A stretch of DNA of 37,812 nucleotides from a bacterium (GTDB taxonomy: Bacteria; Planctomycetota; Planctomycetia; Planctomycetales; Planctomycetaceae): the NCBI GenBank assembly GCA_016124895.1, contig WGMU01000053.1, positions 1 through 37,812 on the forward strand. The letters run 5' to 3'. Positions 3,701 to 37,812 of the stretch are shown one piece after another. Every line of letters begins with the position of its first letter. Positions within the stretch are counted from its first letter, which is position 1. The translations under genes and the position numbers were made by a program. The notes below the pieces were generated by a model. It ran no database searches. It was not told the DNA's origin and worked only from the letters and a program-made list of their open reading frames with translations.

Positions 3701-4925
3701 TCGTCAGCGAATGCAGCGGCGCCGACTTCGCCGCATCGTCGAGACCGTTGATTCGGTGACAGGCGACGCAGCGAGCTTCCGCGACGAGCCGTTTACCGAG
3801 CACGACGTCGGCGTCATTGGCCGCAGGCTTCGCCTGCTGCTTTGCCGGCTTTGCGAGTGCCAGCGCGAGTTGCCGCTTCTCGTTGTTCGACAGTGAGAAG
3901 ACCGGCATCCGATGATCGCGGTTGAGCTTTTCCGGATCGCTGAGCCAGGTAAAAACCCACTCGGCCGAACGCCGCTGCGCGACCTGAGCCAGATCGCCGC
4001 CACTGAATGTTGTCGGCTCGCCCGTTTCGCCGAACTTGTGGCACGCCAGGCAGCCGAGCGACCTGACGAGCGTCGCTCCATCGGCGCGGTCCTGTTCGTC
4101 GCTGCGCCCTTTCGCCGCTTTCGGCAGTGATTGCAGATCAGGCTTCTCAGCCGTCGACTGCAGATAGGTCGCGACAGCCGCCGCCTGGTTCTGCTCGAAT
4201 CCGAACAACGGCATCGCTCCGCCGTGTCCTGCGGTCAGCCGTTTCTGGATCTCCGCGTTCGGCAGCCCGGCAACTGACCGCGTCAGATCCGGCGCGGTCG
4301 CCGCTTGCGGAATCTTCTCGTCGAGATGGCAGCGTGCGCAGCGATGCGACTCGACAAGCTGCCGGCCCCGCTCGATCTCCGCGAGGTCCGGTCGCCCGCC
4401 TTCGCGAAACAGCAGGTGTGCCGGCAGCGGTTCGAGCGGAAACGCATCCGATGACCAGAACAGGTGAACCTCAGACGCGTCGGACCTCTTCTCAAACCGA
4501 ACACTCAGCTCGCGCAGTCCGAGTTCCGGGGAGAACTCATCGCCCGAGATCCATTTCGCCGTCGCCGATTCGCCTGCAACAACCGACGTCCCGTCGAGCT
4601 GTACATCGACCTTGCCGGCAACAAACGTGTGCAGCCGATACGTCCCCGGCTGCTGCACGAGCAGCACACCCCGCCACTCGACCGAGAGTTTGTCACTCAC
4701 CAGCCGAGCGTCTGGCGCCGCGTCCTTCCAGATAAAGGAAACGCCCGAATCAATCCGCTCGACCGTCTTATCGCCCGCCTGATAAGTCCCCAGCAAACCA
4801 GCCGGCAGATCGTCGGACTCGTCGACCTGAGCGAGACCAATGGTCTGGCTGAGAAAAAAACAGCCCAGCAGCGCAATCCAGGATTTGTGACGGGGGATAA
4901 CTGCGGTAACGTTTAGTCTCGTCAT
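708..4925 (-). CDS. Exported multihaem cytochrome c / dehydrogenase-like propeller fusion
   Basis: A 1405-residue exported protein. The chosen start (ATG at 4925) places a signal peptide ending near LSQTIGLAQ (residues ~14-33); upstream in-frame starts exist to 5162 but add a non-conserved arginine-rich stretch. Residues ~43-172 resemble a PA14-type carbohydrate-binding fold. Five CxxCH haem motifs follow at about 196-200 (CARCH), 292-296 (CLACH), 386-390 (CVACH), 471-475 (CVACH) and 598-602 (CIACH), each in a small cytochrome c domain. The C-terminal third, from about residue 1000, has propeller-type repeats (AMTFLDDGRL, DANGDGVED, DTDGDGRTDE, LYVGLGSDY, FRYPTGLAIDAQGRLFATDN) like the glucose/sorbosone dehydrogenase and NHL families. 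Such fusions are abundant in planctomycetes and are presumed periplasmic oxidoreductases for sugars or polysaccharide products; the substrate is not deducible. Shine-Dalgarno is weak. Confidence 0.85.
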   Translation of the reverse strand: MTRLNVTAVIPRHKSWIALLGCFFLSQTIGLAQVDESDDLPAGLLGTYQAGDKTVERIDSGVSFIWKDAAPDARLVSDKLSVEWRGVLLVQQPGTYRLHTFVAGKVDVQLDGTSVVAGESATAKWISGDEFSPELGLRELSVRFEKRSDASEVHLFWSSDAFPLEPLPAHLLFREGGRPDLAEIERGRQLVESHRCARCHLDEKIPQAATAPDLTRSVAGLPNAEIQKRLTAGHGGAMPLFGFEQNQAAAVATYLQSTAEKPDLQSLPKAAKGRSDEQDRADGATLVRSLGCLACHKFGETGEPTTFSGGDLAQVAQRRSAEWVFTWLSDPEKLNRDHRMPVFSLSNNEKRQLALALAKPAKQQAKPAANDADVVLGKRLVAEARCVACHRINGLDDAAKSAPLHSLTKLQLDSAGDNSCLSEKADRTKSRPAFPKLDRKAVTAYLKSISGAPSQTSPFDRGRQLLISRNCVACHPRESFRGLVATAGAMARTHEPLQGQAPKLVPPNLTAVGDKLLDEALTKSIAGEQKRRMDWLFVRMPKFKHSDADAKAITTYLIGHDRIPDSAPTWDKPEPTSKPDDQTLLIGQELVGAKGWSCIACHQVGEYVPQKTIVGTRGSDLVGLGERMRYSYYLRWTRSPLRIVPGVEMPSYTRPVKHVLDEDVDRQLETLWQTLADPRFEPPTNPASVEQFLVVAPDSPAQIVRDVFTNPEENGGGAIARAFAVGFNNGHSLLIDLDTLTLRRWTFGDFARQRTIGKSWYWDMAGSDIVAGLGSSLDTPARSNYALVKSDVAEANVLDASIAPRRENNTNGRLLSYAPYADGIRFRYVLEFELNGKQREVSLEETLRPAGIDGESRSGWTRDVVVRSIPAGYDLVMLNHAGKVLLGQPTSIETRGPDSQVLTEASNSSSKSLGLNLRLKPENGAAETQLRYTAALERTPLSVTLKDAGPGPRNEIRSAPGFDGVQLPINTKIMPTAMTFLDDGRLAFTSLQGHVYTAKDANGDGVEDSLTLVEDGLAAPYGIIQDGDSLLVSHKPELLRLRDTDGDGRTDERSVFSTGWGYNDNYHDWTCGIVRDNAGNLYVGLGSDYAQRDRPREQARWRGKVLKIAPDGTPSPFSHGFRYPTGLAIDAQGRLFATDNQGVQNTFNEINHLRQGLHYGVPKRYEEELKVDVQPPAIQIPHPWTRSVNGIAILPDDFPIKEFAGHGIGAEYNGKLLIRFTYHEVDGQLQGAAYYLTQPDFADEDANFQGPISVAVSPRGEIYVGSIHDSGWLGGLNTGSIVKLTANGRLPAGIREIQATSNGFEISFTRPVDRAAAAKSSTWSISGYTRVWQGSYATPDSGRYQPKISGVFVSDDGMKVRLEVAPLKTGFVYEINCGLQPDGKPLWPATGHYSLYRIPSGGSGK

Positions 4926-5087
4926 CTCGAAAGGCTCTTGAGTCAGCAGGAACAGCGTCATTCCGATCAGACAACCGATCGTCGACCGCCGATGAGATTG
5001 GCAGAAGTCTAGGAACGCAGTTCGGAACCTTCGACTCAGTGGTCTGGTGGCCGGTCGGACAGAAAGAACAGGTCTGCCAGCAAGCGA

Positions 5088-5534
5088 GTGGGAATGATCA
5101 TGATCTTCAGAAGCCAAGATATCCCGGGACTGGAAAGTCTCACCGAGCAGCATCGTCAGCAAATCATGGTAATTGCTGCAAAAATGGTATTCTGGAAACC
5201 GGCCTCGCTGTTGCTTTCCGCATCGCTGGCAATCGCGTTCTGTGCGGCGATCGTTTTGCCTTACTGGACCGGACCGACCGACAACATGCCGTCGTGGCTC
5301 TGGGGCTGCGTACCGGCGGTTGGTTCCTACGGATGTTGGGCCATCTACTGGCTCACTGGAATCAATTCCTTCTTCCGACCTGCGATCAGGTCGATGCTCG
5401 AAGCTGGGCTGCCGCCTGAAACACCTGAAGTCAAACGCCCAACGGTATCACCTGGTGAGCAGTTTACAGTCATTGCATTCGTCCTGACGGTCTTCCTCCT
5501 TTTTGCCCTGCTGGGATTCAGTACGACGCGGTAA
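5088..5534 (+). CDS. Small membrane protein, unknown function
   Basis: A protein of up to 148 residues starting with GTG at 5088, with alternative ATG starts at 5094 and 5100. No family is recognised. Three hydrophobic segments are visible: about residues 38-59 (LLLSASLAIAFCAAIVLPYW), 70-88 (WGCVPAVGSYGCWAIYWL) and 126-144 (FTVIAFVLTVFLLFALLGF). A short soluble, proline-containing loop (PPETPEVKRP) precedes the last one. It is divergent from the multihaem gene and ends three bases before the HNH gene, so the two are probably co-transcribed. Function unknown. Confidence 0.7.
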   Translation: MGMIMIFRSQDIPGLESLTEQHRQQIMVIAAKMVFWKPASLLLSASLAIAFCAAIVLPYWTGPTDNMPSWLWGCVPAVGSYGCWAIYWLTGINSFFRPAIRSMLEAGLPPETPEVKRPTVSPGEQFTVIAFVLTVFLLFALLGFSTTR

Positions 5535-5537
5535 GTC

Positions 5538-5825
5538 ATGGAGCATCTTCCCACACCCTGCAAACTCTGCCATCGCACTCCGCGCAAGGGGACGACGGCG
5601 CATCATTTGATTCCTCGGACGTGCCATCGCAACAAGTGGTTCAAGAAGCAGTTTTCGCGTCAGCAGATGCAGCAGATCGTCGATCTGTGCCGCGACTGTC
5701 ACCGTGCCGTGCATGAGCTGGTGCCGAGCGAGAAGGAACTCGGACGGCATTTCAACACGATCGACAGGCTGCTCGCGCACGAATCGATCGCCCGGTTCGT
5801 CGAGTGGGTTCGCCGGCAGAAGTGA
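5538..5825 (+). CDS. Small HNH-type zinc protein
   Basis: A 95-residue protein with a CKLC pair near residues 8-11, AHHLIPRTCH at about 21-30 and a CRDCHRAVH block at about 51-59. This is the Cys/His arrangement of a compact HNH endonuclease fold: the AHHLIP histidines supply the catalytic His, and the CxxC plus CxxCH hold a structural zinc. Family members of this size occur in many bacteria, usually without known targets. It begins three bases after the upstream membrane protein and has no further partner downstream: the next gene, holB, starts 263 bases on. A nuclease role is family inference; it could be a structural zinc protein. Confidence 0.75.
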   Translation: MEHLPTPCKLCHRTPRKGTTAHHLIPRTCHRNKWFKKQFSRQQMQQIVDLCRDCHRAVHELVPSEKELGRHFNTIDRLLAHESIARFVEWVRRQK

Positions 5826-7168: not shown

Positions 7169-7181
7169 CCGCAGAACCCTG

Positions 7182-7976
7182 TTACGACTTCACAATGTGC
7201 TCGTGATTGTGGATATGGTCTTCGCAGTAGCACGGCGTGCCGGCGCACTGGCTGCAGTAGCGAAAGTCGAGCCTCGGATCCGTGAGATCTGTCCGACCGC
7301 AGACAGCGCATTCGTGAAAGGCTTCTGAGGAACCCGGCACCATGAACTTCGCCTGCTCCGCCATGCGCCGTCGGCCGGTCTTTGCGCGGTCGACGATCTC
7401 GGCGCCGAAGAAGATCAGGAAGTTGCCGACTCCGGCCAGCACAAACAATCGTTCGGGCCAGCCACCGGTAATCAGGATATAGCCGTAGGAGATCCACGTA
7501 AGCAGAGCCAGCCAGCGCACCTGAACCGGCAGAATAAACATGATGTAAAAGACGTACCGCGGGTAAAGGTGAGCGAATGCCAGGAACACCGATCCGCCGA
7601 TGAACGCGACGGTCGCAGGCAGCTCGGGATACACGAAGCTGATCCCAACCGTGAGAATGTATCCCAGCACCAGGTAAGCGTTGTACCGGAACGTTCCCCA
7701 TGTCTGTTCGAGTGCCGAGCCCATCATGTAAAAGCACCACATGGCGAAAAACATGAACACCGGGTGCATCCGAAACGGAGGCGTAAAGACGAACGTCACA
7801 AGCCTCCAGACTTCGCCGGCCAGAACCTGAGCCGGCACCATCTGGATTCGCTCTATGATCTCCGGCTTCGAAAACGTCGTCAGCCAGAAAAAAATCTGGC
7901 CGATGACGACGTACAGCGTCACGTTCGGAATTGCGTAGCGGCCGAAACGCCGTTCCAGTCGAGCGAGCAGTCGCAT
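7182..7976 (-). CDS. Rhomboid-like membrane protein with C-terminal zinc finger, probably inactive
   Basis: A 264-residue, about six-helix membrane protein. Rhomboid-family landmarks are VWRLVTFVFTP (residues ~56-66) after the first helix and a GSALEQTWG loop (~86-94). The serine motif that should be GxSG reads GGSV at 127-130, and the later helix that should carry the catalytic histidine reads AGVGNFLIFFG with no histidine. This suggests a non-catalytic rhomboid. The tail (~221-264) is rich in Cys and His: C223, C226, C241, C244, C249, C251 and several His, like a small treble-clef zinc finger. Topology and zinc binding are inferred. The start ATG at 7976 leaves a 27-base gap to ispH upstream, so the two may be co-transcribed. 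Confidence 0.8.
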   Translation of the reverse strand: MRLLARLERRFGRYAIPNVTLYVVIGQIFFWLTTFSKPEIIERIQMVPAQVLAGEVWRLVTFVFTPPFRMHPVFMFFAMWCFYMMGSALEQTWGTFRYNAYLVLGYILTVGISFVYPELPATVAFIGGSVFLAFAHLYPRYVFYIMFILPVQVRWLALLTWISYGYILITGGWPERLFVLAGVGNFLIFFGAEIVDRAKTGRRRMAEQAKFMVPGSSEAFHECAVCGRTDLTDPRLDFRYCSQCAGTPCYCEDHIHNHEHIVKS

Positions 7977-8003
7977 CGGTAATCTCAGGTCCGGATTTCT
8001 TCG

Positions 8004-8939
8004 TTAGTCGACGGTCTGCAGACGCAGCTCTTTCGGCAGCGGAAAGCTAACGTGCTCTTCGCGGACGACGACGGATTCAACGGTCGCTCCAAAACGTTCC
8101 ACCAGCGAATCGATGCACTCCTGCACGACGACTTCCGGAGCGCTCGCGCCCGCAGTAATCAGAACGGTTTCGTCCCCCGTCAGCGCGTCGGGCGGCAGTT
8201 CGTCGACACTGTCGATTAGAAACGACCGGGCATTGCAGTCAGAGCCGAGTTCCATCAGCCGGCGGCTGTTGGAACTGTTCTGGCTGCCGAGCACGATGAC
8301 AACGTCCGCGTTCGTCGCCAGAGTGGACACTGCTTCCTGACGGTTCGTCGTCGCGTAGCAGATATCCTCTTTCGGCGGCGCTTCAATCTGCGGGAACCGT
8401 CGTTTCAACCTCGTGATCACCGCCTCGGCCTCGCTGACACTGAGCGTTGTCTGCGTCAGATAAGCGATGCGGTCTTCCAGGCCGAAGGGGAGTGCGTCGA
8501 CCTCGCCAGCATTCTCAACCAGAGTGATGCTCTCCGGAGCTTCGCCCATCGTGCCGATGACTTCGTCGTGACCTTCGTGTCCGATGAGAACGATGTTGTA
8601 TCCATCGCGCGCGAAGCGGACGGCTTCGAGATGCACTTTCGTCACCAGCGGGCAGGTCGCGTCGATCGTGTGCAGATTCCGCTCGCGCGACTGACGCCGA
8701 ATCTCCGGCGAAACGCCGTGCGCGCTGTAAAGGAGGATCGAGCCGTCCGGCACTTCCGAGATCGAGTCGACAAACGTGACACCGAGCTTCTCGAAGCGAT
8801 TGACGACGTAGCGGTTATGAACGATCTCGTGGTAGACGAAGATGTTCGGGCCAAAGCGGCGAATCGCCTCGTCCAGACATTCAATCGCCATATTGACGCC
8901 CGCGCAGAAGCCACGCGGATTGGCGAGCAGGATTTTCAT
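8004..8939 (-). CDS. ispH: 4-hydroxy-3-methylbut-2-enyl diphosphate reductase
   Basis: Last enzyme of the MEP isoprenoid pathway: it reduces HMBPP to IPP and DMAPP using a [4Fe-4S] cluster. At 311 residues it has the usual length. The three cluster cysteines are at Cys12 (GFCAGV), Cys96 (DATCPLV) and Cys194 (EDICYATTNRQ). The substrate-contacting histidines (His41, His74, His124) and the catalytic Glu126 (HEGHDEVIGT) are present. Start ATG at 8939 gives the conserved MKILLANPRGFCAG opening. Followed 27 bases later by the rhomboid-like gene on the same strand. Confidence 0.97.
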   Translation of the reverse strand: MKILLANPRGFCAGVNMAIECLDEAIRRFGPNIFVYHEIVHNRYVVNRFEKLGVTFVDSISEVPDGSILLYSAHGVSPEIRRQSRERNLHTIDATCPLVTKVHLEAVRFARDGYNIVLIGHEGHDEVIGTMGEAPESITLVENAGEVDALPFGLEDRIAYLTQTTLSVSEAEAVITRLKRRFPQIEAPPKEDICYATTNRQEAVSTLATNADVVIVLGSQNSSNSRRLMELGSDCNARSFLIDSVDELPPDALTGDETVLITAGASAPEVVVQECIDSLVERFGATVESVVVREEHVSFPLPKELRLQTVD

Positions 8940-33620: not shown

Positions 33621-33973
33621 AAGCTCGTTCTCCCGAGATCATGGGCCGGCAACAAACGACGCGCTCGCGGGAGTTCCGACGCCTTCCTGCGGCGCGCGTC
33701 TGGAGTTCGGACAGTCAGCAACTGCTGCGGGTCCTTCACCGACGTCTTCCGGCTCATAGGTAAGCGAACTATCGAGCTGCACGGGAATGTTTCTTTCCGG
33801 CGCACGCGCATTTCTGGCCGGTGACCGTCGCGACTCGCGAGACCGACGCCTGAACAGTCGCTAGGCTTTCGTCTGCGACGCGATGCGAAGTTGTGCCGAG
33901 CGTCGCGGGCCGGGCGGGAGGGCCGCTGCTGGCCGGGAATCTGTCTGCCTGAGACGCCGGGACGCCGCCTCGA

Positions 33974-35083
33974 ATGACGCCGCAGGAATTCATCGCCAAG
34001 TGGCAGGACACCACGCTGTCGGAGCGGTCCGCCTGTCAGCAGCACTTTCTCGACATCTGCGAGCTGCTGGGACAGCCGAAACCTGCCGACGTCGACAAGG
34101 ATGGTTCGTGGTACACGTTCGAGCGGGGCGTCTCGAAAAACGACGGCGGCAAGGGCTGGGCTGACGTCTGGATGCGCGGGCACTTCGGCTGGGAGTACAA
34201 GGGCAAGCACAAAGACCTCGAACGCGCGTATCAGCAACTGCTGCGCTACCGTGAGGACCTGGACAATCCGCCGCTGCTGGTCGTCTGCGATATGGACCGG
34301 TTCGAGGTTCACACGAACTTCACCGGCACGGCCAAGACGGTTCACGCCTTCGACCTGACGGGACTGGAGCAACCGCAGAACCTCGACGTGCTGCGGAAGC
34401 TGTTCACCGACCCGCAGGCACTCAAACCGGGTGAGACCACTGAAGACATCACGCGCCGAGCCGCCGAAGAATTCGCCCGGCTGGCAGACGGAATGCGGGA
34501 CCGGGGCATCGAACCGCACGACGCGGCGCACTTCCTGATGAAGCTGAAGTTCTGCATGTTCGCCGAAGACATCGGCCTGCTGCCGGACAAGCTGTTTACG
34601 GACCTGCTGACGCGATCGAAGGACGAACCGCCGCGACTGGCGAAGTACCTGCGGGACCTGTTCGACGCAATGTGCGAGGGCGGTGACTTCTGGGGCATCG
34701 ACATCCTGCACTTCAACGGCGGGCTGTTCAAAGACGCGGACGTCGTCGAGCTGACTCCGGCTGAAATCCGCATCCTTTCGCGCGTCAATGACTTCGACTG
34801 GAGCAACGTCGAGCCGTCCATCTTCGGCACGCTGTTCGAGCGAACGCTGGATCCGGCGAAGCCGTTGCGAAAATTGGGATACAAGACGAGTCCAGAAGCC
34901 AGAGAATCATCGACGAAAGAAGTTATTCCGGGTGGCTTATCGATCGGATCCGGAGACGTTTTTGTCACCACGGACACTAGAGGTCGATGGCTGACGACGA
35001 GAGCTAATCTCGTAACGATCTCGGATCACTGGACAATGCCCAACGCACGTTACAGCACCGCGAGGAGGCCGGTGTGCCAATAG
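33974..35083 (+). pseudogene. N-terminal remnant of a MmeI-like type IIL restriction-modification enzyme
   Basis: MmeI-like enzymes join an N-terminal nuclease, a helical spacer, an adenine methyltransferase and a target-recognition domain in ~900-1000 residues. From ATG 33974 the frame encodes MTPQEFIAKWQDTTLSERSACQ, then GWADVWMRGHFGWEYKGKHKDLERAYQQL, a PD-(D/E)xK-like nuclease with the Asp and E-x-K. The spacer (HFLMKLKFCMFAEDIGLLPD, DFWGIDILHFNGGLF) reaches PSIFGTLFERTLDPAK near base 34858, where family members continue into the methyltransferase. Here the sequence changes at once (PLRKLGYKTSPEARE) and the frame ends at 35083 without any methyltransferase motif. The last 10 bases overlap the next gene. 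A free nuclease with no methylase would be expected to be harmful, so it is probably inactive. Confidence 0.85.
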
Positions 35084-35715
35084 AACCGCCAGATTATCAC
35101 GACTATCCGAAGTTGCTCACACCGACAGCGGGAGGAGTAGCTACTGCCATCGGTACTGTGTTGGGAGTCGTCGTATTCCTTCGGCCCGAAACAGGCAGTT
35201 GGGAACTCAGCACACGAATCGGCGTTGCGATCGGTGTAGCGATCGTGCCGTTTGCGTTATGGGGCGTCTCGCATCTATGGCGATGCACTCTTGTGCGTAC
35301 GGAAAGACTCCGTGATTACGATGCACTCCATGAGGCTCATCGCCAAGCGAGTGAATCACTTCAACAGGCGACCGACACAATCAGCCTTCTGATGCGTGAG
35401 CGGCAGGAAGTTCGCACGCTTCGGATAAACTATTGCTACACCTACGACTCAAAGGTCCTCATGTCGCTAAGACGTAAGGCGGGATTCAAACCCGAGGTGG
35501 GAAGCGCTGTGATCGTTTTGGGAAGGAACGACGGCCAAGTGTACGGCCATTTCAGAATTACCGAAGACAATGGCGAGAGTTACACCGCTACAGCGCAAGG
35601 CAACATTGACCCATTGTGGAAGGGCTACATCGTTCAAAATGGTGCTGGACGCTCAGAAGCACCACCAGAATCGATTGCTGTCGTACCAAGGATAGAGGAT
35701 CAAGAAGATGAATGA
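35074..35715 (+). CDS. Two-helix membrane protein with coiled coil and C-terminal beta-domain (cassette gene A)
   Basis: A 213-residue product starting GTG at 35074, set by a strong GAGGAGG ribosome site five bases upstream. Two membrane helices lie at about residues 18-36 (TAGGVATAIGTVLGVVVFL) and 47-69 (TRIGVAIGVAIVPFALWGV), in a hairpin. A charged helical stretch at ~72-115 (RTERLRDYDALHEAHRQASE) looks like a coiled coil. The C-terminus (~138-190) has EVGSAVIVLGRNDGQVYGHF and GESYTATAQGNIDPLWKGY, a small beta-barrel-like pattern. No known family is recognised. Base composition is lower in GC than the flanks. It ends inside the next gene (8-base overlap), so the two are almost certainly translated together. 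Confidence 0.75.
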   Translation: MPIEPPDYHDYPKLLTPTAGGVATAIGTVLGVVVFLRPETGSWELSTRIGVAIGVAIVPFALWGVSHLWRCTLVRTERLRDYDALHEAHRQASESLQQATDTISLLMRERQEVRTLRINYCYTYDSKVLMSLRRKAGFKPEVGSAVIVLGRNDGQVYGHFRITEDNGESYTATAQGNIDPLWKGYIVQNGAGRSEAPPESIAVVPRIEDQEDE

Positions 35716-36145
35716 CGTCATAGTGAAGGCTGAAAGAGGTCGAGTCGCGGCGATCCTGAATGCTCGCGAATTAGTGATCAACTTGGGAAATGCAGACGGC
35801 GTGACCAAGGGAATGCGGTTTGCCGTCCTTGCCGATGAGCCAATCGCAATTCGCGATCCTGAATCTGGCGATGTCTTGGATACATTGGACCGAGAGAAGG
35901 TCCGCGTACGAGCAAAGGAAGTGCGTGAAAGAATCACAATCTGCGAAACGTATCGAATGAAGGGCGCAAGGGGTGCTGTGGCCTTAGCAAGCAACTGGGC
36001 AAAGATCATCACCGAGGAGATGCAGAAGCCACAGCGCGAGACGTTCCACATTAGTGATGACTCAACTCTTCCGCCGCTCACCGAAGAGGAGAGCTACGTG
36101 AAGATTAACGACAGGGTTCGAGCCATAGAGGACGAGAACGACTGA
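35708..36145 (+). CDS. Small FlgT-C-like beta-domain protein (cassette gene B)
   Basis: A 145-residue product from ATG 35708, overlapping gene A by 8 bases with a purine-rich GAAG site upstream. Residues ~11-80 read GRVAAILNARELVINLGNAD, GVTKGMRFAVL, AIRDPESGDVLDTL and KVRVRAKEVRERITICE. This ordering (a strand, ELVINLG-x-x-DGV, KGMRF, D-P-x-S-G-x-x-L, V-x-V-x-x-V) resembles the C-terminal domain of FlgT and related flagellar or curli-export proteins. A closing YVKINDRVRAIED strand follows at the end. There is no signal peptide or membrane helix. The family match is by pattern only. It may sit beside gene A at the membrane; function unknown. Confidence 0.75.
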   Translation: MNDVIVKAERGRVAAILNARELVINLGNADGVTKGMRFAVLADEPIAIRDPESGDVLDTLDREKVRVRAKEVRERITICETYRMKGARGAVALASNWAKIITEEMQKPQRETFHISDDSTLPPLTEEESYVKINDRVRAIEDEND

Positions 36146-36188
36146 GGTAGGCAACCTCAATGGGTGGTCGAGTTCACAAGTCATGTGA

Positions 36189-36548
36189 CTGCGCAGCAAC
36201 TGGCTGAATCCGCCGGAGCGGACGCGCGAGGAAGTGCTGGAGTTTCCCGGTTCGGTCGATGGTCCGTGGTCCCGCTACGTGACCGACCCCGACGACCGAG
36301 GCATCGGCACCGTCCGCTACCCGCGACTGGTCCCCAAAGACGAGGCCGCCGCCAGGAAGCTCAAAAAGCGAACCCTGACCAACCTCTACAACGAACGCCC
36401 GACGTGGCTCGACCTGGCCCACCGAAAACTCGACGAAGCCGTCTTCGCCGCCTACGGCTGGGACCCGGATATCAGCGACGACGACCTGCTGGCCCACCTG
36501 CTGGAACTGAACCTCGCCAGGGCGGCTGCGGAAAAAGGGGCGTCCTGA
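36189..36548 (+). pseudogene. C-terminal remnant of the same MmeI-like enzyme
   Basis: Immediately after an in-frame TGA (36186-36188) the frame encodes LRSNWLNPPERTREEVLEF, then GPWSRYVTDPDDRGIGTVRY, KKRTLTNLYNERPTWLDLAH and RKLDEAVFAAYGWDPDISDD with an ending LARAAAEKG. These are the last ~119 residues of MmeI-like methyltransferases (the LNPPE, NLYNxRPTWL and AVxxAYGW blocks). It has no start of its own upstream. It is the far end of the enzyme whose N-terminus is at 33974, so roughly 500 or more codons, including the whole SAM/catalytic core, are missing between them. Confidence 0.85.
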
Positions 36549-36667: not shown

Positions 36668-37057
36668 ATGGCATGGAGGTTGGAGTGGTCGCCGCGTTTT
36701 GAGGCCACGTTTAAGAAGCTCAAGAAGCAGCACAAGAACGAGTGCCTGAACGCTGCCGACAATCTCGACACGTACTTTCAGGCACTGGAGGAGGGGGCGA
36801 AACCGGCTCAATTGAGTTCGCAGGGATTCGTCCATAATGAAGGTGAGGGCGCCTATGCCGTCGACCAAACCATGCAACGCGACAAGTCGAAGCCACGACG
36901 GCGGACGAACACCGAAGTCCGGCTGTACGTGTACCCGGACGAATCCGCCGACGTGCTCTACGTCATCCTGATCGGCGGCAAGGGTTCACAGAGCCGGGAC
37001 GTGAACGAGGTTCACGAATTCGTCCGCGATATCAAAGCAGAATCCGAAGAGAAATAA
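36668..37057 (+). CDS. RelE/HigB-like toxin
   Basis: A 129-residue basic protein from ATG 36668. It opens WRLEWSPRFEATFKKLKKQH, the RelE-superfamily start with a helix that ends in basic residues, and has EVRLYVYPDESADVLYVILIGGKGSQSRD, the later beta-strands with an IGGKGSQS turn and an Arg-Asp pair. These are typical of ribosome-dependent mRNA interferases, though the catalytic residues cannot be assigned with certainty. The middle (AYAVDQTMQRDKSKPRRRTNT) is an unusual basic insertion. The toxin comes before the antitoxin, as in higBA. It ends 5 bases before the antitoxin gene. Confidence 0.8.
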   Translation: MAWRLEWSPRFEATFKKLKKQHKNECLNAADNLDTYFQALEEGAKPAQLSSQGFVHNEGEGAYAVDQTMQRDKSKPRRRTNTEVRLYVYPDESADVLYVILIGGKGSQSRDVNEVHEFVRDIKAESEEK

Positions 37058-37062
37058 GTCCA

Positions 37063-37668
37063 ATGGGCAAGACATCATCAAAATCCGCTACCAGCGTCCT
37101 CGACATGATCCGCGAGATCGAAGACGACGACTTCGCGGCTGAGCTGGAAACCATTCTGGCTGAGCGGCGAATTCTGAAGTCACTGATCGCAATGCGCATT
37201 GCAGCGGGCGTTTCGCAGGGAGACATCGCCGACAAGCTGGGGTGTTCGCAATCCCGTGTTTCGAAGCTCGAACGCGCCAATGACGGGGACCTGAAACTGG
37301 ACGAACTTGCCGCCTACGGTGCGGCGACCGGACGCGAATTTGAGATCCTCGCCCATCGCAAAGGCTCGACACCGGTCGACCGCGTCAAAGCCTACGCATT
37401 CTGCATTCACCGCGAACTGAAGTTCCTGGCATCCCTTGCGAAGGGGGATCAGTCGATGGCGCAGGGCGTCAGTGCGTTCATCGGTGAGGCGCTCTTCAAC
37501 GTTGTGAAAGCGATGAAGGACGCGGCGAAGACTCTTCCCAAACGTCCGCCAATCACGATGGAACTTGACGCCGACGAACTCGACGACGATTGCCCGGATG
37601 AGGCGGCAGCGGCACAACCACGCAAGCGGGCAAAACGCCGACGTCGTGAAGATGCCGTACCTGCTTGA
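37063..37668 (+). CDS. XRE-family antitoxin/regulator with long C-terminal extension
   Basis: A 201-residue protein. Residues ~20-38 are an acidic helix (EIEDDDFAAELETILAERR). A Cro/C1-type helix-turn-helix spans ~41-95 (LIAMRIAAGVSQGDIADKLG, SQSRVSKLERAN). The last ~100 residues, HRKGSTPVDRVKAYAFCIHR and on to an acidic then Lys/Arg-rich end (QPRKRAKRRRRED), are much longer than usual antitoxins, suggesting extra binding sites or a second role. It lies 5 bases after the toxin, so both are in one transcript. It would neutralise the toxin and repress the promoter at 36584. The identity as antitoxin follows from the context and the HTH. Confidence 0.8.
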   Translation: MGKTSSKSATSVLDMIREIEDDDFAAELETILAERRILKSLIAMRIAAGVSQGDIADKLGCSQSRVSKLERANDGDLKLDELAAYGAATGREFEILAHRKGSTPVDRVKAYAFCIHRELKFLASLAKGDQSMAQGVSAFIGEALFNVVKAMKDAAKTLPKRPPITMELDADELDDDCPDEAAAAQPRKRAKRRRREDAVPA

Positions 37669-37680
37669 GGCTTGCTGGCC

Positions 37681-37812
37681 TGCCCCCTGAAAACTGGTCC
37701 GGGGTTTATGAGAGTTTCCGGCCGATAAAGATCGGCGAAGGAGGCTTTCGATGACGAAGCAACGAAGACGACACAATCCCGAGCAGATCGTGAAGAAGCT
37801 GCGTGATGGGGA
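37681..37812 (+). mobile_element. Left end of an IS3-family insertion sequence (truncated by window)
   Basis: A terminal sequence TGCCCCCTGAAAACTGG at 37681, close to the IS3-family end consensus (TGx-CCCCTGAAAA-CTGG), begins 13 bases after the antitoxin stop. A strong AAGGAGG ribosome site (37738-37744) and an orfA start follow at 37751. The right end is outside the window, so the group, length and target duplication cannot be read. Confidence 0.75.
37751..37812 (+). CDS. IS3-family transposase OrfA, N-terminus (truncated by window edge)
   Basis: From ATG 37751 the first 20 codons encode M-T-K-Q-R-R-R-H-N-P-E-Q-I-V-K-K-L-R-D-G, the start of the helix-turn-helix of OrfA-type transposase proteins of IS3 elements (…PEQIVxxL). 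The rest is outside the window. A perfect ribosome site AAGGAGG is 6 bases upstream. Confidence 0.75.
   Translation, partial: MTKQRRRHNPEQIVKKLRDG

Follow-up and report, generated by a model that had tools for sequence, protein, structure and literature searches.

A core-less MmeI-like restriction-modification gene of a planctomycete carries a two-gene cassette between its conserved ends and belongs to a recurrent kind of locus

We analysed a stretch of 37,812 nucleotides, hereafter the window (positions 1 to 37,812 of contig WGMU01000053.1, assembly GCA_016124895.1, from a bacterium of the Planctomycetaceae), in which the MmeI-like restriction-modification (RM) gene at 33974-36548 has lost its methyltransferase and target recognition core and holds a cassette of two genes instead. 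We confirm this replacement of the core, which is one of a recurrent kind. Nine further loci carry ectopic ends of the same gene subfamily, eight of them next to a different cassette, so that of the two explanations offered by an earlier note on this DNA, a hot spot of cassette exchange fits better than a single accident. We consider it somewhat probable that the window gene is one of a recurrent class of core-less MmeI-like RM genes, whose mostly defensive contents are exchanged through the conserved gene ends, and that the two genes held in the window form a membrane-acting defence.

Both ends of one type IIL enzyme lie on the same strand, as the earlier note had recognised from the sequence. 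The 5' remnant (N arm, 33974-34861, +, delimited by alignment with Pfam, MmeI and the intact gene L019) spans codons 1-296 without a stop or frameshift and encodes the nuclease domain and helical spacer, matching Pfam MmeI_N over residues 1-176 (E 3e-14), MmeI_hel over residues 182-252 (E 8.5e-14) and, by sequence, MmeI itself (PDB 5hr4, E 5.1e-21). Its residues D64, E74 and K76 align with D70, E80 and K82, the catalytic D...ExK residues of MmeI (PMC4833311, available part). The 3' remnant (C arm, 36189-36548, +, with its own stop at 36546-36548) comprises the last 119 residues of the enzyme and was delimited by its similarity to L019; its match to Pfam MmeI_C (E 2.1e-4) falls under Pfam's own cut-off, and a sequence search of the PDB gave no match at E 1. 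The head of the C arm has no start codon, the first in-frame GTG occurring at 36234, and an in-frame TGA (36186-36188) sits immediately before it.

The closest intact relative of both arms is L019, a single 983-codon frame starting at 4864 of JABMPE010000470.1, from a Rhodopirellula metagenome-assembled genome (MAG), which is 83% identical to the N arm and 86% to the C arm, ahead of nine other genes (eight for the C arm). An origin of the two remnants from different parent genes was rejected, since L019 is the best match for both, and the window's own genome has no second N-arm match at E 1e-20. DNA similarity to L019 extends over 33966-34860, breaks off and resumes at 36189, and the same restart was seen in DNA comparisons against nine further loci. 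Alignment of intact homologues to both remnants placed the junctions at 34860/34861 and 36189, within a few bases of the 34858 and 36189 first proposed. What is absent from the window corresponds to L019 5766-7461, that is, 1696 bp or about 565 codons of methyltransferase and target recognition domain, which bears out the expected absence of at least 500 methyltransferase codons.

According to the domain map in the available part of PMC4833311 (nuclease 1-155, spacer 156-300, methyltransferase 301-620, target recognition domain 621-825, C-terminal bundle 826-919), the junctions correspond to about residues 306 and 843 of MmeI, with the C-arm similarity resuming at L019 residue 867. The left junction thus falls just past the border between spacer and methyltransferase (300/301) and the right one 17 residues into the C-terminal helical bundle, which is present as a separate fragment without approximately its first 17 residues; nearly the whole recognising and methylating part was therefore lost, and little else. 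Between 34861 and 36188 we found no match to a gamma-class N6-adenine methyltransferase (motifs I and IV) or to a target recognition domain. As far as can be predicted from these sequences, the window enzyme can no longer recognise or methylate DNA. Like the MmeI type IIL enzymes as described in the accessible text (PDB 5hr4; PMC4833311), the window locus presents a D...ExK nuclease, a helical spacer and the C-terminal end in this order; unlike them, it has no methyltransferase or target recognition domain and carries two genes between its ends.

The missing core is replaced by 1328 bp of other DNA (34861-36188), in agreement with the roughly 1.3 kb of unrelated DNA reported before. The GC content at third codon positions is 0.52-0.60 inside this insert versus 0.84 and 0.83 in the two arms. 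The insert begins with a leader (34861-35073) that has no DNA match to the intact genes, followed by cassette gene 1 (35074-35715, +, 213 aa, GTG start), cassette gene 2 (35708-36145, +, 145 aa), which overlaps the former by 8 nt, and a spacer of 43 nt (36146-36188) up to the C arm. By our own reading, AGGAGG at 35063-35068, 5 nt before the GTG at 35074, is a candidate ribosome-binding site. In first-order Markov resamplings of the insert (n = 2000), a stop-free + strand frame of at least 213 codons occurred in 0.4%, and such a frame together with a second one of at least 145 codons in 0.1%. The N arm is also continued by an open tail of 73 codons, resulting in a 369-codon frame (33974-35083, +) whose stop lies 10 nt inside cassette gene 1; this tail has no recognised similarity to the enzyme, and with a chance of about 6% its openness is not significant.

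Cassette protein 1 has two membrane helices predicted from hydropathy (residues 18-36 and 45-63), followed, in a low-confidence AlphaFold2 model (mean pLDDT 66, two-sequence alignment), by a long helix and a small beta domain; a fold search of the PDB with this low-confidence model found nothing at E 1e-3 or better. Cassette protein 2 is predicted to be a small beta-barrel related to the FlgT/TsaP C-terminal domain, based on profile comparison, AlphaFold2 and Foldseek. Its model is of high confidence over approximately residues 11-80, and at E 1e-3 or better Foldseek returned two matches, an LPHT ring (8z5n, TM-score 0.41) and FlgT (3w1e, E 7e-4, TM-score only 0.44), while a profile of its family matched TsaP over 27 residues (E 3.3e-5). 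Against Pfam FlgT, only a resemblance to the C-terminal domain was detected, below cut-off, and there was no other FlgT or LysM domain. Neither cassette protein reached the cut-off of any Pfam or NCBIfam family or matched PADLOC at E 1; among PHROGs, protein 1 gave no match better than E 0.59 and protein 2 a weak match to phrog_27728 (E 4.4e-4).

We considered whether the cassette could be native to the enzyme and rejected this possibility, as no intact homologue was seen to carry its sequence: the cassette proteins had no match in the subfamily loci at E 1e-4 (38 loci) or, among the matches listed, at E 1e-3 (eight loci). Both cases named in the earlier note as refuting its proposal, remnants of different parentage and a cassette proper to intact homologues, were therefore not found in the loci searched. 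Transposon-like ends at the window junctions were likewise rejected (no direct word of at least 7 nt, and one inverted word of 7 nt, within chance). An empty site in the host genus was sought through the lgt gene, for which G001 had no match at E 1e-60.

To place the window locus among its relatives, loci of the MmeI-like subfamily were gathered with the N arm, with the C arm and with a joined N-plus-C query, the last of these in 209 genomes of the class. The census used 82 of them, representing 62 distinct loci, or 63 with the window; the intact L065, duplicates and more distant MmeI relatives are excluded. Classified by coverage and open-frame lengths, these 63 comprise 39 full-length, 4 frameshifted, 11 contig-end-cut and 9 core-less loci, and since all were found with the window's own arms, the numbers are not a rate. 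The core-less loci are the window, L037, L042, L085/L117, L160/L176, L161/L175, L165/L177, L166/L178 (where the contig stops before any N arm could appear) and L168/L179 (retaining only residues 846-918). A tenth locus with an ectopic arm, L024, has a full-length gene and, behind it, a restriction cassette and then an additional C arm, which is 97.3% identical over 336 nt to the gene's own and begins about 4 nt from the equivalent of the window junction. These ten loci are mostly from Planctomycetota; four (the window, L037, L175 and L176) keep both arms and seven the 3' arm. Two further candidates with orphan C arms were rejected, the one in G196 being a frameshifted full gene and that in G078 a weak distant match over 53 residues.

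The earlier suggestion that the replacement sits at a precise place is true in part. Right breakpoints fall at residues 819-888 (L019 numbering) in 6 of 7 loci, the seventh being at 940, although this clustering is partly forced, as alignments do not extend well into the variable recognition domain upstream: across 21 intact pairs, mean DNA identity was 0.44-0.55 in that domain, compared with 0.62-0.71 in the C arm and mostly 0.70-0.76 in the N arm, where it dips to 0.58. On the left, every breakpoint is different, the last matched residues being about 56, 99, 112, 150, 194 and 202, and 301 in the window.

Eight of the other nine ectopic-arm loci have RM, defence or toxin-antitoxin (TA)-like genes lying against the arms. 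We identified a HicB-domain protein, a D12 methylase and a CsrA-Mrr protein at L024; HNH, HNH_2 and the start of a cytosine methylase at L037 (a 5-methylcytosine (m5C) methylase fragment read from its motif, with PADLOC MTase_II at E 0.0024 and no Pfam match); an Olokun pair at L042 (OloA E 7e-24, OloB E 2e-22); a TA-like pair between the arms of L175 in genome G931 (HTH_66 E 8e-4, below cut-off, and PIN_10 E 6e-11); GmrSD_N and GmrSD_C at L176 (E 2e-34 and 1e-26); PLDc_2 and RE_NgoFVII at L177; an Eco57I/TaqI_C methylase in two frames at L178; and, at L179, a SIR2-like protein (E 5e-9 in PADLOC; E 0.0014 in Pfam, under its cut-off). L179 also has a phage-type primase on the far side. The orientation is also shared, the cassette being on the gene's strand in 8 of the 9 loci that have one, the window included and L037 being the exception. 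Among the eight other loci with RM, defence or TA-like genes, 7 have them on the same strand, and in 5 of the 6 that possess a C arm they abut it. In 6 of the 7 C-arm loci (the window, L024, L175, L176, L178 and L179), the final gene of the cassette shares the strand of the arm, and its end falls in the interval from 57 nt upstream of the C arm to 23 nt inside it. At L024, the predicted protein encoded at 7170-8177 joins a CsrA domain and an Mrr nuclease domain, and its true start is probably later, as the first part of the frame overlaps the D12 methylase gene.

Two pairs of related alleles suggest how such contents may change. L029 and L037 occupy the same address in two MAGs, the former being intact and the latter having its core replaced. 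Their DNA is 93.6% identical over 949 nt of 5' flank and N arm and 96% over 237 nt of downstream flank, while the C arm region of L037 is only 85% identical to L029 over 627 nt, hence more diverged than either flank, as if cassette and C arm had come in together. L175 and the intact L180 (genome G989, of the same genus label) have the arms and about 190 nt upstream in common; there was no further match in the stretches compared, and the genomic surroundings differ. Synonymous divergence (dS) between L175 and L180 was 0.44 (0.31-0.61) in the N arm and 0.16 (0.08-0.25) in the C arm, with the intervals apart, and between L037 and L029 it was 0.14 (0.07-0.22) and 0.35 (0.21-0.50), with the intervals just touching, a borderline case. 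For comparison, the N/C ratio was about 0.6-1.7 in ten pairs formed by other intact genes, which are far more diverged. Differing arm histories are a prediction of recombination through the arms; the same outcome would follow from recombination in the intact partner.

For the window itself, dS from L019 was 0.80 in the N arm versus 0.28 in the C arm. We had taken this as a sign of different histories of the two arms and have withdrawn it, given that the N arm of L019 is far from those of other intact genes too (N 1.9-2.8 and C 0.9-1.05 against three of them) and the contrast is probably L019's own. When the window was compared with L020, L021 and L024, the intervals of the two arms overlapped widely, and with L022 slightly. 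The unusual synonymous distance of the L019 N arm (4864-5766) is an observation in its own right, hinting that intact genes, too, are mosaics.

We infer that the contents of these loci are exchanged by homologous recombination through the arms; the two allele pairs support this, and the window does not decide it. An insertion-deletion would first place a cassette against the ends of an MmeI-like gene; these conserved ends could then act as homology arms, so that ordinary homologous recombination with incoming DNA bearing the same ends would swap what lies between them. The promoter and start region left from the MmeI-like gene may also serve the cassette.

We also searched for the membrane and barrel genes elsewhere. 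Neither matched at E 1e-3 in 58 other relatives, and IMG/VR contained no near relatives of either protein. Within the phylum, 392 genomes were searched with the joined cassette query, scoring no more than five candidates in each; 21 genomes matched, the own genome included, and besides the latter only G351 matched both halves. We then inspected 21 barrel-gene loci, namely the window, G351, nine other Planctomycetota, four phage or plasmid records and six others (3 of 201 genomes around G436 and 3 of 214 around G434), leaving aside the weak matches L103, L105-L113 and L115. In 11 of them (the window, G351, a Glutamicibacter plasmid, Lacticaseibacillus phage P7.1, whose barrel protein likewise had no near relatives in IMG/VR, a haloarchaeal Haladaptatus plasmid and the six genomes of the G436 and G434 groups), the barrel gene is directly preceded, on the same strand, by a gene for which one or more membrane helices are predicted (two in 8 of the 11), the two genes overlapping or lying within about 30 nt of each other. 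In 5 of the 10 pair loci outside the own genome, the pair has defence-type genes no more than about 1.7 kb away: a CAP12/Pycsar TIR gene (PDC-S35), an HSDR_N gene 0.6 kb before the pair (L134), ResIII with SLFN_AlbA_2, a type ISP/IIG enzyme 30 nt upstream (L145) and an m5C methylase 1.6 kb upstream. No family matched the 326-aa neighbour of the pair in G351.

Taken together, this suggests that the membrane and barrel genes are an undescribed, probably defensive, module. With less confidence than for the arm exchange, we infer that it may act at the membrane in a manner resembling abortive infection. On the Glutamicibacter plasmid (L133, 4485-6311), the CAP12-type TIR gene, the membrane gene and the barrel gene follow each other as a compact three-gene unit on a mobilizable plasmid of 6.6 kb. 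The nine other planctomycete barrel genes (L095-L102 and L104) have no small two-helix gene upstream; seven of them adjoin what we take to be hisD (histidinol dehydrogenase), and at L100 a seven-helix channel-like gene, presumably a ClC, lies 23 nt upstream.

Several observations weigh against exchange between conserved ends and a defensive role of the pair. The left breakpoint never recurs between loci. L117 is a bare remnant in which, by reading only, no RM or defence gene was recognised. The window's arms give no clear sign of being a mosaic relative to the other intact genes, terminal repeats or microhomology beyond chance are absent from its junctions, and the pairs found were all of an intact and a cassette-bearing allele, none showing exchange between two cassette-bearing alleles. 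Defence genes also occur next to intact loci, apparently less often: 2 of 9 downstream neighbours scanned singly (L025 and L032) matched PADLOC at E 1e-5, in all, three of the ten neighbours scanned singly were positive, and of 44 neighbours scanned together at least 4 were positive, with no listed family matching more than one member. This control is small, was based on crude longest-open-reading-frame gene calling, and the ten neighbours scanned singly were partly chosen as defensive-looking. Part of the pattern is therefore ordinary defence-island clustering. As for the pair, 10 of the 21 barrel loci (the nine other Planctomycetota and Gordonia phage DatBoi) have no small membrane partner, and in 5 of the 10 outside pair loci no recognised defence-type gene lies within about 1.7 kb.

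These points lend some weight to the alternative of a one-off decay, in which a dead restriction gene in a defence island received two unrelated genes through a single insertion-deletion and the parallel loci reflect ordinary island turnover. Besides the scattered left breakpoints, the bare remnant and the lack of a clear mosaic in the window, it is favoured by the stop codons in the C arm of L178 (genome G943) and by the fact that loci with changing defence systems are already known (PMC12707154 and PMC5398294, in their available parts). The RM, defence or TA-like genes in eight of the nine other ectopic-arm loci, with their shared strand and close fit to the C arm, as well as the L029/L037 allele pair and the arms that differ in dS between L175 and L180 and nearly so between L037 and L029, speak against it, and we regard such a decay as unlikely, albeit a serious contender. 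A bolder version of the exchange reading, in which MmeI-like genes in Planctomycetota are an exchange slot whose 5' and 3' homology arms let entire defence cassettes be swapped, also under the old gene's promoter, and in which the window pair represents a novel and widespread module against phages that may employ the captured nuclease half as effector, appears rather doubtful to us.

Alternatively, the severed nuclease half might have been kept as the effector of the membrane and barrel pair in a three-gene operon. The 296 intact codons with their catalytic residues, the 10-nt overlap of the frame with cassette gene 1, and a proportion of amino-acid changes that is not raised on the window branch (9 amino-acid to 15 synonymous changes, versus 22 to 33 on the branch of the intact L019) would be compatible with this, as would the position of the pair elsewhere directly behind a CAP12-type TIR gene or a type ISP/IIG enzyme and 0.6 kb behind HSDR_N. 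The start-less C arm is, however, equally well preserved, so that a recent break explains the conservation of the N arm; no relative of the N arm stands beside the pair elsewhere among the loci read, and the overlap can be due to chance, as noted above for the tail. We therefore judge such an operon improbable. An assembly artefact joining pieces of different genomes would account for the deviating GC of the insert and for the missing cassette matches in 58 relatives, but is extremely improbable, as both arms stem from one parent and keep its order and orientation, the contig would have to contain two false joins, and nine other loci have the same kind of layout.

Exchange of defence genes between conserved borders is not new. 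The P2/P4 hotspots reportedly hold alternating defence systems in this way. As far as the available parts of the respective papers go, different defence systems also alternate between conserved borders in the enteric immigration control region and hotspot 37 (PMC12707154) and at site 39 of S. suis (PMC5398294). In the immigration control region, hotspot 37 and site 39, the borders are ordinary conserved genes or a tRNA gene, whereas here they are the ends of one restriction gene, and this gene sits in dissimilar genomic surroundings in G931 and G989. An accessory gene within a restriction locus is exemplified by prrC, embedded in the type IC ecoprrI locus; according to the accessible text, the EcoprrI enzyme is functional and its inhibition activates PrrC (PMC12707154), whereas the window enzyme is cut in two. 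The cassette proteins also resemble known components. Cassette protein 2 would share its barrel fold with the FlgT/TsaP C-terminal domain; FlgT has a three-domain architecture, which the 145-aa cassette protein does not attain, and, unlike FlgT, cassette protein 2 is paired with a membrane protein. Effectors of the Cap15 or S-2TM-beta type in cyclic oligonucleotide-based antiphage signaling systems (CBASS) consist of two membrane helices followed by a beta domain, as modelled for cassette protein 1. Unlike CBASS/Pycsar effectors, the cassette proteins have no PADLOC match and no cyclase was recognised alongside; the direct neighbours of the cassette are the MmeI-like remnant and a TA-like pair. 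Among the matches listed in a search of the open-licence PubMed Central literature, no paper dealt with MmeI-like genes as a cassette slot or with the membrane and barrel pair.

The TA-like pair lies directly downstream of the C arm (36668-37057 and 37063-37668, +). The first gene encodes a small protein with only weak RelE/HigB-like matches and the second an HTH_3 protein (E 1e-6), so that the two look, from these matches, like a toxin-antitoxin pair with a long antitoxin. A putative transposase gene, identified by eye, starts at 37752 (37752-37812, +), and the window ends inside it. In the wider subfamily, the MmeI-like genes L070 (2961-3256) and L075 (871-636) are longer by roughly 80-100 codons around the methyltransferase region, near L019 residue 490. 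In another case, a single MAG (bin.20) has three contigs, L039, L040 and L041, that all end within the first 80 codons of an MmeI-like gene, which suggests that the assembly was interrupted by multiple gene copies or by differing continuations.

What would be new here is an exchange of defence genes, itself known, that is bordered by the ends of a single restriction gene; in the window, an undescribed two-gene module lies inside. If this is true, the slot could travel with the restriction gene into new surroundings, and orphan MmeI-like ends would be a search tag for undescribed defence genes, which eight of the nine ectopic-arm loci besides the window fit. In the window, this tag would point to one unclassified pair, a membrane protein with an FlgT/TsaP-like barrel.

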